A program made the translations under genes and the position numbers. Below, piece by piece: positions 2,747-10,762 of a stretch of DNA of 64,000 nt. The stretch covers positions 62,001-126,000 of the forward strand of contig JAHJSA010000013.1 in the NCBI GenBank assembly GCA_018830645.1. The letters run 5' to 3'. The first letter of the stretch is position 1; each line of letters opens with the position of its first letter. This DNA is from Actinomycetota bacterium. GTDB lineage: Bacteria; Actinomycetota; Thermoleophilia; RBG-16-64-13. The notes under the pieces were generated by a model. That model saw only the letters and a list, made by a program, of their open reading frames with translations, was not told where the DNA came from and did not search any database.

Positions 2747-4018
2747 ATGAGCGCGAGAGCAATCACACGACGGCAACTGCTCAAGCTGGCCGGAGTCTCC
2801 GGCCTTGGCCTCAGCGGCCTCGGCTGGGTCGCGGGGTGCGCGGCCGATGACACGCCCGGCACCACGGCGCCGGGAACAACCGACGGGTCGCCGGCGCAGA
2901 CGACAGCGGTCACGGGAGACGGGGCCCGGCTCCCCGCGGTGAAGATCGGCTACATCCCAATCACCGACGCCACCCCGCTCCTGATCGCGCACGCGAACGG
3001 TTACTTCGAAGATGAGGGCCTCGAGGTGGAGCAGCCCACCCTCATCAGGGGGTGGTCCGCGCTGGCGGAGGCCTTCCAGGCGGGCACGTTCAACCTTACC
3101 CACCTGCTGATCCCGATCCCGATCTACCTTCGGTACGCGCGCAACTTCCCCGTGAAGGTGGTCGCCTGGAACCACATGAACAATTCTGCCGTGACCGTGA
3201 GCGATAAGGGACCCATCCGCAGCACGGCCGACTTGGGCGGCAAGCAGATCGCAGTACCGTACTGGTACTCCATGCACAACGTCATCCTGCAGATGGTGCT
3301 GCGCTCTCACGGGCTCCGCCCGGTCATCCAGGATCAGAAGGCTCCTCTGACCGCCGATCAGACCAACCTGCTGGTCATGGCTCCGCCGGATATGCCCACG
3401 GCCTTGAGCGCGGGCGCGATCGACGGCTATATAGTGGCCGAACCATTCAATGCCGCAGGCGAGGTGCTCGCGGGAGGCCGGGTGATCCGTTTCACGGGGG
3501 ACGTATGGCAGAACCACCCGTGCTGCGTCGCGGTGCTGCACGAAAGCGACGTGCGCGAGCGGCGGGAGTGGAGTCAGAAAGCCGTCAATGCTCTGGTCCG
3601 TGCCGAGCGCTGGTCTGGGGAGAACAAGGAGGAGGCGGCGCGAATACTCTCGAAGGAGGGCGGCGGCTACCTGCCGTTCGAAGAGAAGATCATCCTCCGC
3701 TCCATGACCAAGTACGACCTGGAGACCTATGGCGTCTCCGGGGGCACGGGAGCCATCCGGCATCCCGAGTGGGAGGCGGCGCGGATCGCCTTCGAGCCCT
3801 ACCAGTTCCGCTCGGCCACGAAGCGCATCGTTCAGGAGCTGAAGCAGACCGTACTCGAAGGGGACACGACCTTCCTCCAAAGCCTGTCGCCGGAGCACGT
3901 GGCCGACGATCTCATGGACTACGAGCTGGTGAAGAAGGCACTGGCGGCAAACGGGGGTCTGGCCGCGTTCGACGGCGCCTATCCGGACTTCGAGCGGGAC
4001 GAGGTGATCGAGGTATGA
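2747..4018 (+). CDS. ABC transporter substrate-binding lipoprotein, nitrate/sulfonate/taurine type
   Basis: The ATG at 2747 (preceded by GGAGGG) gives 423 residues. The N terminus carries a twin-arginine motif (ITRRQLLKLAG) and a lipobox ending GWVAGC, followed by a Thr/Gly-rich linker, so it is an exported lipoprotein. The mature part matches the NMT1/SsuA-like fold: KIGYIPITDATPLLIAHANG at its start, and a long two-lobed periplasmic-binding domain. Such proteins bind nitrate, bicarbonate, sulfonates or pyrimidine precursors; the ligand here cannot be read from the sequence. It begins a four-gene overlapping operon ending in a CO dehydrogenase, which hints that the import serves that enzyme or its pathway. 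Confidence 0.85.
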   Translation: MSARAITRRQLLKLAGVSGLGLSGLGWVAGCAADDTPGTTAPGTTDGSPAQTTAVTGDGARLPAVKIGYIPITDATPLLIAHANGYFEDEGLEVEQPTLIRGWSALAEAFQAGTFNLTHLLIPIPIYLRYARNFPVKVVAWNHMNNSAVTVSDKGPIRSTADLGGKQIAVPYWYSMHNVILQMVLRSHGLRPVIQDQKAPLTADQTNLLVMAPPDMPTALSAGAIDGYIVAEPFNAAGEVLAGGRVIRFTGDVWQNHPCCVAVLHESDVRERREWSQKAVNALVRAERWSGENKEEAARILSKEGGGYLPFEEKIILRSMTKYDLETYGVSGGTGAIRHPEWEAARIAFEPYQFRSATKRIVQELKQTVLEGDTTFLQSLSPEHVADDLMDYELVKKALAANGGLAAFDGAYPDFERDEVIEV

Positions 4019-4827
4019 GCACCGCTCCCGTCGCCGCGCGGCGGATCGTGGGGACACAGTGGAGATCGTGGAAACCTCGTCTCGGCGACGTCGGTCTGAA
4101 ACTGCTCGGCGTCTTGGCCTTCCTCTCCTTGTGGCAGGCGGCAACGAGCGCGGGACTGCTGGGTGAAGCCTTCGGGGCGGACTTCGGACCGGTGCGGGGT
4201 CTGCGCGCACTCGGCCGGTTAGCGGCCTCCGGCGTGCTCGTCGAGCAGTCGTCGGCTTCCCTCGGCCGCCTGGGGTTGGGCCTGGGGATCGCCGTGCTCA
4301 TCGGAGCGCCTTTGGGGGTGCTCGTGGGCTATTCGCGACCCCTCGACGCGGCCACCAGCGTGGTCTTCCAGTTCCTACGCATGACCTCGCCGTTGGCGTT
4401 GGTGCCGGTGGCTCTGGTGGCGTTCGGTGTTGGGTCCCGGCCCGTCGTCTTCTTGGTGGCGTTCGCCGCGCTGTGGCCCGTCCTGCTCTCGACGGCGCAC
4501 GGCGTGAGCCGCGTGAGTCCCATCTGGAAACGGGTGGTGCGCGGTTTCGGCGGGGGCGACCGGGCCGTCGTGCGGAGGGTCATAATCCCGGCCACCGTGC
4601 CCGATCTCCTTCAGGGCGTGCGTCTGGCTCTTGGCGTGTCCTGGGTGGTGATCGTGCCGGCCGAGATGCTTGGAGTCGATTCGGGCCTGGGGTACCAGAT
4701 ACTCGACGCCCGGGACCGCTTCGCCTACGACGAACTGGTGGCCACCATCCTCGCAATCGGGCTGCTCGGGTATCTCACGGACCTGGCTCTGCGGTGGCTC
4801 AAGGAGAGGTACTCGTGGAGCGTGTGA
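4015..4827 (+). CDS. ABC transporter permease, SsuC/TauC type
   Basis: The start codon overlaps the previous stop (ATGA at 4015-4018). The protein has 270 residues with about six membrane helices and the BPD_transp_1 signature region near VIIPATVPDLLQGVRLALGV, where the EAA-like loop would contact the ATPase. It forms the membrane channel of the importer with the binding protein upstream and the ATPase downstream. The stop overlaps the start of the ATPase gene. Confidence 0.87.
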   Translation: MSTAPVAARRIVGTQWRSWKPRLGDVGLKLLGVLAFLSLWQAATSAGLLGEAFGADFGPVRGLRALGRLAASGVLVEQSSASLGRLGLGLGIAVLIGAPLGVLVGYSRPLDAATSVVFQFLRMTSPLALVPVALVAFGVGSRPVVFLVAFAALWPVLLSTAHGVSRVSPIWKRVVRGFGGGDRAVVRRVIIPATVPDLLQGVRLALGVSWVVIVPAEMLGVDSGLGYQILDARDRFAYDELVATILAIGLLGYLTDLALRWLKERYSWSV

Positions 4828-5699
4828 GACAGGCTCCGGAGCGCGACGGCGCGGATCAGCGCACCTCGCGGCCCGCGCCGAGCGGAGCCGGACAGGTCGG
4901 CGTGCGCCGGACCGTCCTCGGTGACGCGATCATCGTCGTCGACGGGGCCGGCCGCACGTTCGGACGTGGGAACACGTCCGTGGAGGCGCTGTCCGCCACC
5001 ACCCTCGAGGTGTACGAAGGTGAGTTCTTCTGCTTGGTCGGTCCATCCGGCTGTGGGAAGAGTACGCTCCTCAACCTGATCGCGGGGTTCGACCAGCCCG
5101 ACACAGGGCGGGTGCTGGTGCACGGTCGACCGGTCACAGGGCCCGACCCGCGCCGGCTGCTCGTGTTTCAGGACTACGGACTCCTCCCGTGGCGCTCTGC
5201 CATCGGGAACGTTGAGCTGGGCCTGGAGATAGCGGGGATCCCGCGCGAGGCGAGAAGATCCCGAGCCCGCGCCCTGCTCGAGCGCATGGGCCTGGGTGCG
5301 TTCGAGGAGAAGAAACCGCACGAACTCTCGGGCGGAATGCGGCAGCGCGTGAACATCGCCCGCTCCCTGGCTGTGGACCCCGACATCCTGCTCATGGACG
5401 AGCCGTTCGGCGCCGTGGACGCGCTTACCCGGATGGGACTGCAGGCCGATCTCCTTGAACTGCATCGAGCGGGGGGCAAGACCGTGGTCCTCGTGACGCA
5501 CGACATTGAGGAAGCCATCTACCTGGGGGACAGGGTCGCGGTGATGAGCGAACGGCCAGGTGCCATCCGAGCGACCGTCACGGTGGACCTCGCCTGGCCG
5601 CGGGACCGCACCTCCGCCGAGTTCACCCACCTGCGTGAGGTGATACTCGAGCACTTCCGTTTGGTGCCGGAACGCTGTGCACCCGAGTATTCGATCTGA
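4815..5699 (+). CDS. ABC transporter ATP-binding protein, SsuB/TauB type
   Basis: The GTG at 4815 lies eight bases after AAGGAG and within the end of the permease gene. The 294-residue protein has Walker A (GPSGCGKST), the Q-loop (FQDYGLLPWR), the signature (LSGGMRQR), Walker B (ILLMDEPFGAVD) and the switch His (VTHDIEEA). The LPWR Q-loop is typical of the nitrate/taurine importer ATPases. The first 35 residues are a poorly conserved polar extension. It energises the importer formed with the two upstream genes. Confidence 0.88.
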   Translation: MERVRQAPERDGADQRTSRPAPSGAGQVGVRRTVLGDAIIVVDGAGRTFGRGNTSVEALSATTLEVYEGEFFCLVGPSGCGKSTLLNLIAGFDQPDTGRVLVHGRPVTGPDPRRLLVFQDYGLLPWRSAIGNVELGLEIAGIPREARRSRARALLERMGLGAFEEKKPHELSGGMRQRVNIARSLAVDPDILLMDEPFGAVDALTRMGLQADLLELHRAGGKTVVLVTHDIEEAIYLGDRVAVMSERPGAIRATVTVDLAWPRDRTSAEFTHLREVILEHFRLVPERCAPEYSI

Positions 5700-5709
5700 G
5701 GAGAGGCAC

Positions 5710-7674
5710 GTGCGCTATCCCTACCCCAAGCTGAACACCGAGATGCCCGACCGGGCGGACGTCCTTCGTCTCACCCCTTCGGCGGCCCTCCCACCCCTGG
5801 CGGAGCACATGGCCTCGCTCGACCTCCCCAGCTACCTGGATCGGTCGGACGCTCAGCAGCGACTCTGCTCCTGGGGCCTCGACGGCACGTGCTGCCGCCG
5901 GTGCCTGTGGGGACCCTGCCGGGTGACCGACTCCAACCCGGGCATCTGCGGGGCGGGCCCGGCACAGGTGGTCATGGGCAACCATCTCCGCATGGTGGCC
6001 GCCGCGGCCGCGGCCCACGGATCGCACGCCCGCGCGCGGCTGGAGACGATCCTCGCGATCACGGAAGGGCGCGAGGAGGGGCCGTTGCGTGGGATGGACC
6101 GGGTGCGATGGCTGGCGGAACGCTTGGACGTGCCGCTGAGCTCGAGCGGGGCGGAAAGATCCGATCTCGAGGTGGCGCGGGACGTCGCTCTCGTCCTGTA
6201 CGACGATCTCTCCAAGGCCCGGCCCGGACCCATGCGCCTATTGCACGCCTGCGCTCCGCAAGAACGCGTGGAAACCTGGCGCGAGCTCGGCGTGCTCCCC
6301 ACCTCCACCATGGCCGAGGTGTTCGAGAGCCTGCATCGGACGACCCTCGGAACGGACTCCGACTGGCGGAACACGGCCCTCCAGGAACTGCGGCTCGCTG
6401 TGGCCTTCTTCTGGGGAGCCGTGGCGCCGGCCAGCTTCGCTTCGGAGATCCTCTACGGCCGGCCCTCGCCGACGTCGGGCGAGGTGGGGTTCGGCATGCT
6501 GGCACGCGGCAGCGGAGTCAAACTGGCGGTGCACGGACATCTCCCCGTTGCCGCGGAGGCACTCCTGGCCGCCGCCGAGGAGCCGGAGATGCTCGCGGAG
6601 GCCGCGGCGGCAGGTGCCGACGGTTTCGATTTCTACGGTATCTGCTGCTCGGGCCAGGAATTGCTGGCGAGGCACGGAGTACCCTCGGTCACGGGCATCC
6701 TGGGACAGGAATTCGCCCTGGCCACCGGGGCCCTGGACGCCCTGGTGGTGGATCTGCAGTGCGTTCTTCCGGCCATCATGCCGGTGGCTCGGGAAAAGGG
6801 CACGATCGTGGTGACCACGCACGATTCGAACCGGCTGGAAGGCGCCGTGCACATGCCCGCCGAGCCGGGGACGCTCCCGCAGGCGGCCCGGAAGATCCTT
6901 GGGCTGGCCTGCGACGCGCATCGTCGCCGTGTGGGAACGGTCATGTGCGTTCCCGCCGTGACGGCACCCGCGAGAGGCGGATTCGACGACGAGACCATCC
7001 TCGAGGCTTTTGGTGGAGCGGGCGAGCTGCTGGCTCTACTCCGCCGGGGCGACATCATCGGGCTGGCCACCCTGGTCTCGTGCAACACACCCAAGGTGCC
7101 CTTCGAGCGCTCGAACGTGGTGCTGGCGAAGGAGCTTCTGCGCCGAGGGGTGCTCGTCACCACCACGGGGTGCGCGGCGCACGCCTTGCTGGACGCCGGG
7201 CTTACGGCCGACGCGGCCCGCGAGCTGTGTGCCCCCAGCCTGCGCGCCGCCCTTGAGCGGGCCGGGCTGCCGCCCGTCATCCCGGTTGGTGCCTGCGTGG
7301 ACAACACGCGCACGATGTTCCTGTGGCTTAGGCTCGCGGAGGCCGCAGGCACGTCGCTCTCGGCGCTTCCCCTGTTCTACGTGGGCGCCGAGCCGGGCAA
7401 CGAGAAGGCGCTCGGGATGGGCATGGCGTTCCTCGCTCACGGCGTGAACGTGCTCTCCGGGTTCCCCATCCCAGTGCCCGTGCCGTCGGCGGAGCAGGTC
7501 CCGGGCGGTGCGGCCGACGACATGAGGCGGGTGGCGAATCCGGTGGCCGATTTCTTCAGCGGCGAGACGGTTTCGATCATGGGGGCACGCATCATGGTGG
7601 AGCCGGCGCCCGAGCTGGCGGCGGGGGCCATACACATGGACTTCAGGCGCAAGCGGTGGGCCCTGGGTTGGTAG
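5710..7674 (+). CDS. cooS: Anaerobic Ni-Fe carbon monoxide dehydrogenase catalytic subunit
   Basis: The GTG at 5710, with GAGGAGAGG upstream, gives 654 residues, close to the usual CooS length. Near residues 53-80 the pattern C-x7-CC-x2-C-x4-C-x9-C (CSWGLDGTCCRRCLWGPC) supplies the D- and B-cluster cysteines. Candidate C-cluster ligands follow in order: the His in VHGHLP, CCSGQE, VDLQCVLP, SCNTPK, TTGCAA and GACVDNTR; the catalytic Lys lies in EPGNEKALG. These motifs indicate an active enzyme that interconverts CO and CO2. The electron carrier CooF, the Ni-insertase CooC and the acetyl-CoA synthase subunits are absent next to it. Instead the gene ends an ABC-importer operon. Sequence at key motifs (CSGQE rather than the common CTGNE) points to a divergent CODH clade. 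Confidence 0.93.
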   Translation: MRYPYPKLNTEMPDRADVLRLTPSAALPPLAEHMASLDLPSYLDRSDAQQRLCSWGLDGTCCRRCLWGPCRVTDSNPGICGAGPAQVVMGNHLRMVAAAAAAHGSHARARLETILAITEGREEGPLRGMDRVRWLAERLDVPLSSSGAERSDLEVARDVALVLYDDLSKARPGPMRLLHACAPQERVETWRELGVLPTSTMAEVFESLHRTTLGTDSDWRNTALQELRLAVAFFWGAVAPASFASEILYGRPSPTSGEVGFGMLARGSGVKLAVHGHLPVAAEALLAAAEEPEMLAEAAAAGADGFDFYGICCSGQELLARHGVPSVTGILGQEFALATGALDALVVDLQCVLPAIMPVAREKGTIVVTTHDSNRLEGAVHMPAEPGTLPQAARKILGLACDAHRRRVGTVMCVPAVTAPARGGFDDETILEAFGGAGELLALLRRGDIIGLATLVSCNTPKVPFERSNVVLAKELLRRGVLVTTTGCAAHALLDAGLTADAARELCAPSLRAALERAGLPPVIPVGACVDNTRTMFLWLRLAEAAGTSLSALPLFYVGAEPGNEKALGMGMAFLAHGVNVLSGFPIPVPVPSAEQVPGGAADDMRRVANPVADFFSGETVSIMGARIMVEPAPELAAGAIHMDFRRKRWALGW

Positions 7675-8855: not shown

Positions 8856-9569
8856 ATGGATGGGACGTCGACAGAAGAACGACTCGGGACCGCTGGGTTC
8901 GCGAACGACGCCCACGTCGCGGGCCCGCCGCTCCTCGCCGCCTGCGGCATCACCAAAGCCTACCACCGTGGACGTTGGCCGCGACGGGGCCAGAATCGTG
9001 TGCTCAAAGGGGTGCACATGGAACTGCGTCGCGGCGAGATCGTCGGCCTGGTGGGTGAGAACGGCTCGGGGAAGAGCACTTTGATGAAGATCCTCGTTGG
9101 GGCTCTTGACCGTGATGGAGGCTCCGTGGACCGGACCGGCCGAGTGGGCTTCTGCCCGCAGGATCCAGTCTTGTACGAACGACTTACCTGCAATGAGCAT
9201 TTCGAGTTGTTCGCCCGGGCCTACGGCATGTAGCCGGACCTACTAGAGCGATCACGAACGAAGATCTACGAGGCACTCGGCTTCGATTCGTGGGGAGACA
9301 CTCGTGTGGAGGAACTCTCCGGAGGCACGCGGGCCAAGCTCAGCCTGGTACTAGCCTTGCTCCCAGACCCGGACATCCTGCTGCTCGACGAACCATGCGC
9401 CGGCTTCGACTGGGATACGTATCAGCGGTTCTGGGAACTCACGGCCGAACGGCGGGCCGCAGGCCGTGGACTCCTCATCATCAGTCATTTCATCGCGGAC
9501 GAGGAGCGCTTCGACAGAGTGCTACACCTCGTTGGCGGCGTCATAGACAGCGGGGTGGTCAAGCCATGA
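8856..9569 (+). pseudogene. ABC exporter ATP-binding protein gene with an in-frame TAG
   Basis: The reading frame is continuous from the ATG at 8856 to TGA at 9567-9569 except for one TAG at 9231-9233. Before it lie Walker A (GENGSGKST) and the Q-loop (GFCPQDP); after it lie the signature (VEELSGGTRAKLS), Walker B (DILLLDEPCAGFD) and the switch His (IISHF). Homologous sequence resumes directly after the stop (PDLLERSRTKIYEALGF), so this is a point change, not a frameshift. Intact, the protein would have 237 residues. It overlaps the downstream permease gene by ATGA. Translation could restart at GTG 9306, but that product lacks Walker A. A sequencing error, a recent inactivation or readthrough all remain possible. 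Confidence 0.7.
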
Positions 9570-10762
9570 CCGGGTTGCTCACCGCCGACTACGTGCGTGA
9601 GTACGCACGGCGCCCGATCAGTCTCGTCCTCCTCGTATTGATCCCTATCATCTTCGTGATCATGGCCGGCGGAGCCCTCGCCGACGTCTATCTCGGTCTG
9701 GGTTCGGCCGTGGGCGCCCTGGTGCGTAGCGAAGTCAATGGCTCCCTGCTCATCGTCTTCATCTGGCTCTTCGACCTCTTCCTGGGCCCGGCCATGGGCT
9801 CAGGGGGAGACACGATGATCACCCGCGTGTTCCCCACACACTTCCCGACCCTGGTGATGCTGAACACGCCCTCGGGCTATGCCGGACCTCTGGGCGACGT
9901 GGGGATGGGACTGGCGTGGGTCGCCGGCTCCCTACTCGTGGCGACGATCCTTCTGGTGCGTAGCACTAGGCCTGCCGTCGAGAGGGAGGCACGGACACTG
10001 GGCGGGTGGCGCCGAACGGGGACGGCGCTCCGCTTTGGCTTCACCGAGTATCGACGGAACACAGCGTTGTGGGTACTGCTCGTGTTCCTCCCGGTGGCCT
10101 TCATCACCTTGAGCTTCTACGTGACACCGTCCACCCCGTCCCCCGTCGAAGTGACCAGCGGCGGCCGCGCCCAGCTGGTCATGCTGCCCATGGCCGAGAT
10201 ACACGGGGCCATCATGGTGCCCATCACCGCGGCCTTCCTGACGGGCCTGGCCGGGCTGTTCGTGGTTGTGGGCTCAGCCGAGGCGGACCGGCGCCTCGTT
10301 CTGGCGGGCTTCCGCACGCGTGAGGTGCTGACCGCACGCGTGGCGATCATCGCCGCCGCCGGCCTGCTCACCACCGGGGTGTCTCTGGCGGTGACGGCCT
10401 ACGACTTCACCCCCGCGGCCTGGCTGCCGTTCGCCGGCGCCAACCTCCTGGTGGCCCTCACCTACGGCATGATCGGGGTGTTGGTGGGGCCCCTGGTGGG
10501 TCGATTGGGTGGGCTCTACGTGATGTTCCTCATCCCCTTCTTGGATGTGGGCCTGGCGCAGAACGTCATGTTCTCCGCCGCCCCGCCCTCATGGGCGCGC
10601 TTTGCGCCCGGGTATGGCGCAGTGCGGGTGCTGGTGGATGGTGCCTTCACCGCCGACTTCGACGAGACCCGCAGCCTGCTGCCGGCCCTTGCCTGGCTCG
10701 CGGCCATCACCGCGGCGGCGCTGGTGGTCTTCCATCGCTTGGCCCGTCCAAGGGTGGGGTGA
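9566..10762 (+). CDS. ABC-2 type exporter permease
   Basis: The 398-residue protein has an N-terminal helix after a short cytoplasmic start (ISLVLLVLIPIIFVIMAGGAL), a large extracytoplasmic loop, and further helices in the C-terminal half, as in ABC-2 permeases. Between residues 165 and 180 a second unit begins (FTEYRRNTALWVLLVFLPVAFITL), so the protein may be an internal duplication of a half permease. Its ATG overlaps the stop of the damaged ATPase gene, so its function depends on whether that gene works. The CsoR-like site upstream of the pair suggests metal-responsive expression. The exported substrate is unknown. Confidence 0.75.
   Translation: MTGLLTADYVREYARRPISLVLLVLIPIIFVIMAGGALADVYLGLGSAVGALVRSEVNGSLLIVFIWLFDLFLGPAMGSGGDTMITRVFPTHFPTLVMLNTPSGYAGPLGDVGMGLAWVAGSLLVATILLVRSTRPAVEREARTLGGWRRTGTALRFGFTEYRRNTALWVLLVFLPVAFITLSFYVTPSTPSPVEVTSGGRAQLVMLPMAEIHGAIMVPITAAFLTGLAGLFVVVGSAEADRRLVLAGFRTREVLTARVAIIAAAGLLTTGVSLAVTAYDFTPAAWLPFAGANLLVALTYGMIGVLVGPLVGRLGGLYVMFLIPFLDVGLAQNVMFSAAPPSWARFAPGYGAVRVLVDGAFTADFDETRSLLPALAWLAAITAAALVVFHRLARPRVG

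Follow-up and report, generated by a model that had tools for sequence, protein, structure and literature searches.

Why should a nickel CO dehydrogenase (Ni-CODH) homologue be encoded in one operon with an ABC importer? The question is raised by a locus in the window, which is the whole stretch of 64,000 nucleotides analyzed here, lying on contig C97 of an actinobacterial genome (G000; 3.87 Mb, 99.8% complete).

The operon and its host genome

The four genes of the locus are as follows.

2747..4018, + strand: substrate-binding lipoprotein (SBP) of a NitT/TauT-type ABC importer, NMT1_2/SsuA-like (Pfam PF13379, E=2.8e-43)
4015..4827, + strand: ABC permease, BPD_transp_1 (PF00528, E=2.5e-19)
4815..5699, + strand: ABC ATPase, nitrate/taurine/SaoA-like (PF00005, E=1.7e-30)
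5710..7674, + strand: CooS, a Ni-CODH homologue of 654 residues assigned to clade B, structural group B-4 (PF03063, E=5e-100; tree and ligand table)

The SBP and permease genes overlap by 4 bp, the permease and ATPase genes overlap by 13 bp, and a gap of 10 bp separates the ATPase gene from cooS, making a single tight operon (2747-7674). The SBP has 423 amino acid residues with a Tat-like RR motif and a lipobox (VAGC). The start codon of CooS is the GTG at 5710; there is an in-frame GTG upstream at 5677, but the relatives begin at the position equivalent to 5710. The GC3 value is 0.82-0.86 for all four genes. Thus, the codon-position GC supports the four genes as real and, together with the coordinates, agrees with an earlier sequence-only reading, which had described four genes overlapping or ten bases apart and a complete CooS. 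Since the GC3 values are so similar and the arrangement is conserved in relatives, it is not due to chance.

Neither CooC nor CooF is encoded at the window locus, and the operon has no other electron carrier. The host genome has three further cooS genes, whose contexts were assigned by sequence motifs: the one on contig C94 belongs to a Wood-Ljungdahl operon that also encodes a CooC-type ATPase (DADPNANLG), the one on C51 adjoins genes for a CooF-like 4Fe-4S protein and an NADH oxidoreductase-like protein, and the one on C74 is found with NuoE/F/G-like genes. Therefore, the cell does encode CooC and CooF, although the window locus has neither, as had been noted from the sequence. The comparison set has one other genome of the genus, and this genome lacks the window-type CooS. 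Long open frames on C97 (35859-37873; L005 and L006), situated some 24-26 kb upstream of where the window starts, contain two weak hits to the CODH model, both in its C-terminal part.

Assignment of the CODH homologue to clade B

The residue table and the alignment with relatives revealed that the window CooS lacks none of the ligands of its D, B, and C clusters and none of the equivalents of the catalytic His, Asp, and Lys (C53, C61, C62, C65, C70, C80, H103, D218, H275, C313, C351, C458, C488, C529, and K566), just as the first reading of the motifs had it. The spacing C53-X7-C61-C62 is that of a type II D-cluster. A broken active site was rejected because every ligand is present. With TIGR01702, the NCBIfam equivalog for the CO dehydrogenase catalytic subunit, the window CooS scores 402 bits (E=3.6e-120), under the curated cut-off of 478, and the other three CooS sequences of the host genome score 555-712 bits. 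The C-cluster motif of the window CooS was confirmed to be CCSGQE. The sequence-only reading had contrasted its CSGQE with the common CTGNE; the motif is real, and the change of N to Q, D, E, or L is a clade-wide feature of clade B, but the Ser residue is private to the window and a 97% identical twin. At this site, the 69% and 59% identical relatives have CCTGQE. As the Ser residue is confined to two near-identical copies, CSGQE as a mark of special chemistry was rejected.

These three close relatives are rare finds, namely the twin in an Actinomycetes MAG (G017, the same as L035), the 69% relative in an actinobacterial genome (G076), and the 59% relative in an Anaerolineae MAG (L036), and the importer genes adjoin the CODH gene in all three. 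Among 396 actinobacterial genomes, the CODH profile score falls from 1355 bits directly to about 430 bits. The Firmicutes sequences fall into two groups, a full-length one at 700-817 bits and another at about 500-563 bits, of which most members are His-rich. The clade B loci were gathered by genome search; a contig scan with a single protein yielded close relatives together with a small number of other CODHs, and nothing else.

In a tree of 93 rows, the window group and the Firmicutes B-4 group form a sister pair (SH-aLRT 99), the His-rich groups are in turn the sister of this pair (SH-aLRT 99), and the clade B groups stand apart from the PDB references 6elq, 6t7j, and 6vwy. At the position of the second C-cluster Cys, the His-rich group has Asp, and the window group and the first Firmicutes group have Cys. 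The tree and this Cys pattern match the groups B-1 to B-3 and B-4 of Inoue et al. (PMC6344411), the residue assignment being made by comparing the window residue table with Table 2 of that paper. Thus, by the shape of the tree, the residue table, and the gene context, the window CooS is assigned to clade B, group B-4, in answer to the call of the sequence-only reading for a CooS phylogeny. An ordinary CO oxidizer of clade E/F was rejected by the tree. That reading had also named two findings that would speak for ordinary CO oxidation, a CooC/CooF set elsewhere and a CooS clade of known CO oxidizers; CooC and CooF do occur elsewhere in the genome, but clade B has no known CO oxidizer, and no enzyme of this clade has been characterized to date (eLife 2026, PMC13056359).

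It is known that clade B CODHs accompany NitT/TauT transporters, for which metal (nickel) import has been proposed (Inoue et al. 2019, PMC6344411), and that a NitT/TauT transporter is found in 64% of clade B operons, which lack maturases (eLife 2026, PMC13056359). The pairing of CooS and importer in the window is therefore already known. The same context as in the window group is found in Ruminococcus albus 7, whose conjugative plasmid pRUMAL02 carries SBP-permease-ATPase-cooS (L203:6152-10890) with a homocysteine methyltransferase gene within about 8 kb. At another locus (L129:7525-9297), a clade B CODH is shortened and fused to part of a permease, and the SBP is missing; it may be a decayed copy or an assembly error. 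The exception to the rule of no maturase is L128, where a gene for a CooC/MinD-like P-loop ATPase (8879-9712) immediately precedes the gene for a clade B CODH that branches early.

Linkage to cysteine and methionine genes

What else is encoded beside B-4 CODHs? A cysK gene lies in or directly beside the operon in 14 of the 16 B-4 loci. It adjoins the CODH gene on the same strand at a distance of 17-200 bp in all 12 Firmicutes loci, and it stands at the head of the operon in the 69% actinobacterial relative and the 59% Anaerolineae relative, where the gene order differs. Neither cysK nor a window-type SBP/permease was found within about 8 kb at any of 26 loci of other CODH clades. For cysK, the difference gives p=2e-9 in Fisher's test with the kinship of loci ignored, a value that overstates the linkage since independence of the loci is incomplete (L119 and L121, e.g., are almost identical). 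The rearranged gene orders, together with a CODH identity of only 44-48% between phyla, argue that the linkage has been maintained.

The identity of cysK was confirmed with TIGR01139 (477 and 434 bits), and the neighboring genes for CysE, CysK, homocysteine synthase, and LarE all score above the NCBIfam cut-offs. In another lineage, a homocysteine synthase gene lies directly upstream of the clade B CODH gene. In L119 and L121, genes for sulfite-reductase-like and ThiF-like proteins are divergent from cysK-CODH, and L119 also has a TusA gene. In the His-rich groups, cysK is adjacent in only 3 of 28 loci, all three from one close lineage. The maintained linkage bears on the idea that sulfur and transport genes are mere traveling companions of the CODH homologue, which would itself serve in redox or stress functions in the manner of clade D CODH-V or HCP. 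Clade D CODH-V has no CO activity, and a non-canonical or degenerated function has been suggested for clade B (PMC13056359). However, the linkage has been kept over deep divergence despite the rearranged gene order, and B-4 retains every catalytic residue, unlike clade D; a mere traveler of this kind is quite improbable.

Leader RNAs of some relatives point in the same direction. A SAM riboswitch (87.5 bits) was found just upstream of metY-metY-cysK-CODH-SBP-permease-ATPase in L117. In the His-rich groups, three genomes of close kinship, which lack a strong importer match, have a T-box (110-118 bits) before cysE-cysK-CODH.

L134:4739-4954: cysteine T-box leader before cysE-cysK-cooS
L132:4923-5137: cysteine T-box leader before cysE-cysK-cooS
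L180:11199-11413: cysteine T-box leader before cysE-cysK-cooS

The specifier position of these T-boxes is UGC and the bulge is UGGA, which fits U73 of tRNA-Cys. One control locus of another clade has a T-box, but it lies downstream of the CODH gene.

In the window, no cysK adjoining the operon and no riboswitch was found, and such a cysK is also absent in the 97% twin. The nearest cysK of the host genome is on contig C75 and is 76% identical to the operon-linked cysK of the 69% relative; the genome also encodes a sulfite-reductase-type domain near a second cysK-like gene. Thus, linkage to cysteine or methionine genes and control by Cys or SAM are seen in relatives of the window copy, not in the window copy.

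A sulfite-reductase-type (NIR_SIR) domain is encoded in 22 of the 26 clade B genomes. As the domain model PF01077 is broad and finds a match in 22 genomes only, sulfite reductase as a strict partner was rejected, and the four genomes without the domain mean that a sulfite product cannot be general. The same count bears on another explanation, in which the CODH homologue oxidizes CO in the ordinary way and a different enzyme uses the electrons to reduce a sulfur compound, either imported or cytosolic. The intact catalytic residues of B-4 and the sulfite reductase-like genes of the 22 genomes would fit it. On the other hand, the operon has neither CooF nor another electron carrier, the His-rich groups keep the cysE-cysK context although their second C-cluster Cys is replaced by Asp (PMC6344411), four genomes lack NIR_SIR, and eight clade B genomes lack the importer. 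An electron-supplying CO oxidizer is thus improbable.

The importer with and without the CODH

The importer matches known systems at the family level only; it does not reach the equivalog level as TauABC, SsuABC, or NrtABC. The SBP matches TIGR01728 (SsuA_fam) with E=8.5e-30, under the cut-off; the permease does not reach the equivalog cut-offs of NtrB, SsuC, TauC, and SaoP; and the ATPase is TauB-, NtrCD-, and SaoA-like, all under the cut-offs. The SBPs beside clade B CODHs have S175-x-H177 and C259-C260 as invariant motifs among their conserved residues. The Cys-Cys and Ser-x-His residues are also present in the closest solved structure to the window SBP (Staphylococcus aureus, 3UN6) and in nine SBPs encoded on plasmids of aerobic or oxygen-producing bacteria; in the nitrate transporter NrtC, neither the Cys-Cys pair nor the His of Ser-x-His is present. 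An AlphaFold model of the SBP, built on three sequences, has a pLDDT of 33.

The nine plasmid loci (L204-L212) are from Agrobacterium, Thermomicrobium, Synechococcus (pANL), Deinococcus, Bartonella, Roseomonas, Methylocystis, Marinobacter, and Variovorax. In all nine, as annotated, a protein of the acyl-CoA dehydrogenase family is encoded in or near the operon with the same SBP subfamily; this flavoprotein is weakly related to SfnB and to the desulfurization enzyme DszC. The plasmid loci often also encode a carboxymuconolactone-decarboxylase, an OsmC, or an SCO4226-like protein. In Synechococcus pANL, the importer/flavoprotein set is close to cysK.

The sequence-only reading had called for a survey of importer and CODH co-occurrence. 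The pairing is recurrent beside B-4 CODHs, and the SBP/permease is absent from all 26 control loci, but a strong match to the importer SBP is lacking in eight clade B genomes, those with T-boxes included. An unlinked importer was found in five related genomes of one group with a lone CODH, and in G1604. In view of the eight genomes, importer and CODH are not obligate partners, and the obligate pairing was rejected.

A LarE gene, encoding an ATP-dependent sacrificial sulfur transferase, lies directly downstream of a clade B CODH-ABC set in L197 (11589-12428) and also in L198 and L199, the three genomes being related.

The sequence-only reading had offered that the importer could bring in a cofactor, which amounts to the hypothesis of Inoue et al. 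(2019) that it supplies nickel or a nickel chelate to the CODH homologue. This enzyme would depend on such a supply for want of CooC at its locus, and would in other respects be a CO dehydrogenase of the ordinary or a slow kind. The His-rich extensions of B-1 and B-3 CODHs (PMC6344411), the LarE neighbors (a sulfur transferase for the nickel-pincer cofactor; TIGR00268, 328 bits in L197, by similarity in L198-L199), and the SCO4226-like domain (a nickel-responsive family) adjoining the importer in S. elongatus keep nickel import a real rival, and the invariant His and Cys residues of the SBP would suit it. However, the aerobes pair the same importer with flavoproteins, with no nickel enzyme annotated alongside; cysK, cysE, metY, the SAM riboswitch, and the Cys T-box are left unexplained; and the window CODH, like other B-4 members, has no His-rich tail. 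The comparative evidence fits nickel supply less well, and I regard it as unlikely.

Proposed role in sulfur acquisition

The other suggestion of the sequence-only reading, an enzyme whose substrate is a small molecule but not CO, is favored by cysK, cysE, metY, the SAM riboswitch, the cysteine T-box, and the flavoprotein partner in aerobes. A role of the clade B CODH-importer set in sulfur assimilation is likely from these comparisons; for the window's own copy, I infer it from the relatives. That the four genes form an anaerobic sulfur-acquisition module, in which the CODH homologue reductively cleaves an imported sulfur compound, has in my judgment about an even chance of being right. The sulfur content of the imported compound, the action of the CODH on it, and the type of reaction are each inferred.

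In the proposed mechanism, the lipoprotein, permease, and ATPase would bring a small sulfur-containing compound into the cell, with an organosulfur anion, e.g., a sulfonate, as the most likely one. Low-potential electrons would reach the C-cluster via the B and D clusters of the CODH homologue, and the Ni-Fe-S C-cluster would cleave the compound reductively; in principle, the C-cluster chemistry of CO2 reduction at Ni-Fe could extend to the breaking of a C-S or S-O bond. Ensign is said to have studied the R. rubrum CODH with COS and CS2 in 1995. The product would be sulfide, or sulfite to be reduced further by a sulfite reductase, and cysteine synthase would fix the freed sulfide into cysteine. 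In anaerobes, the CODH homologue may thereby take the place of the oxygen-dependent flavoprotein that stands beside the same importer in aerobes. The broader idea, that clade B Ni-CODHs in general are not CO dehydrogenases but O2-independent organosulfur-cleaving enzymes feeding cysteine synthesis, the anaerobic counterpart of the aerobes' flavoprotein, is possible but should be taken as tentative.

If the sulfur role is true, it would be the first concrete function for clade B, a large branch of Ni-CODHs. It would alter the inference that gut and sediment genomes with cooS are "CO-utilising", and would provide a candidate enzyme with which strict anaerobes could obtain sulfur from compounds whose opening in aerobes depends on oxygen. 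Among the papers searched, none was found that joins clade B CODHs to sulfur starvation or COS chemistry, or that joins cysK, cysE, metY, and the riboswitches with clade B CODHs, suggesting that the sulfur link is new. Overall, the observations of the sequence-only reading were confirmed and its interpretation was partly supported.

Comparison with known systems

The window locus shares with the published clade B Ni-CODHs and their NitT/TauT transporters the clade, the type II D-cluster, the B-4 C-cluster with its His/Lys set, the three transporter families adjoining cooS, and the lack of a maturase at the locus (PMC6344411, PMC13056359). It differs from them in its Actinobacterial/Chloroflexota sub-branch, CCxGQE, and the importer upstream of the CODH. 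Neither the link to cysK, cysE, metY, and riboswitches nor the aerobic flavoprotein counterpart is discussed in PMC6344411 or PMC13056359. In a survey of human gut cooS genes, cysK was found beside a putative Ni-CODH gene, mainly in Megasphaera, as a minor type with no function assigned (Katayama et al. 2024, PMC11338639). In contrast, cysK is near universal in the B-4 loci analyzed here, occurs with the importer, and is under SAM- or Cys-sensing leaders in some relatives.

The SBP, permease, and ATPase families of SaoX-SaoP-SaoA (NCBIfam) are related to those of the window, which fall well short of the equivalog cut-offs (54 of 300, 141 of 295, and 225 of 360 bits, respectively), and no SaoL/SaoC-type partner was seen with the window importer. 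In TauABC-TauD, SsuABC-SsuD, and SfnB-type modules, the genes of a NitT/TauT-class importer accompany that of a single partner enzyme, which releases sulfur for the synthesis of cysteine. The window importer scores below the equivalog or subfamily cut-offs of TauA, TauB, and SsuA, and its partner is a CODH homologue instead of the O2-dependent oxygenase of these aerobic sulfur-source modules.
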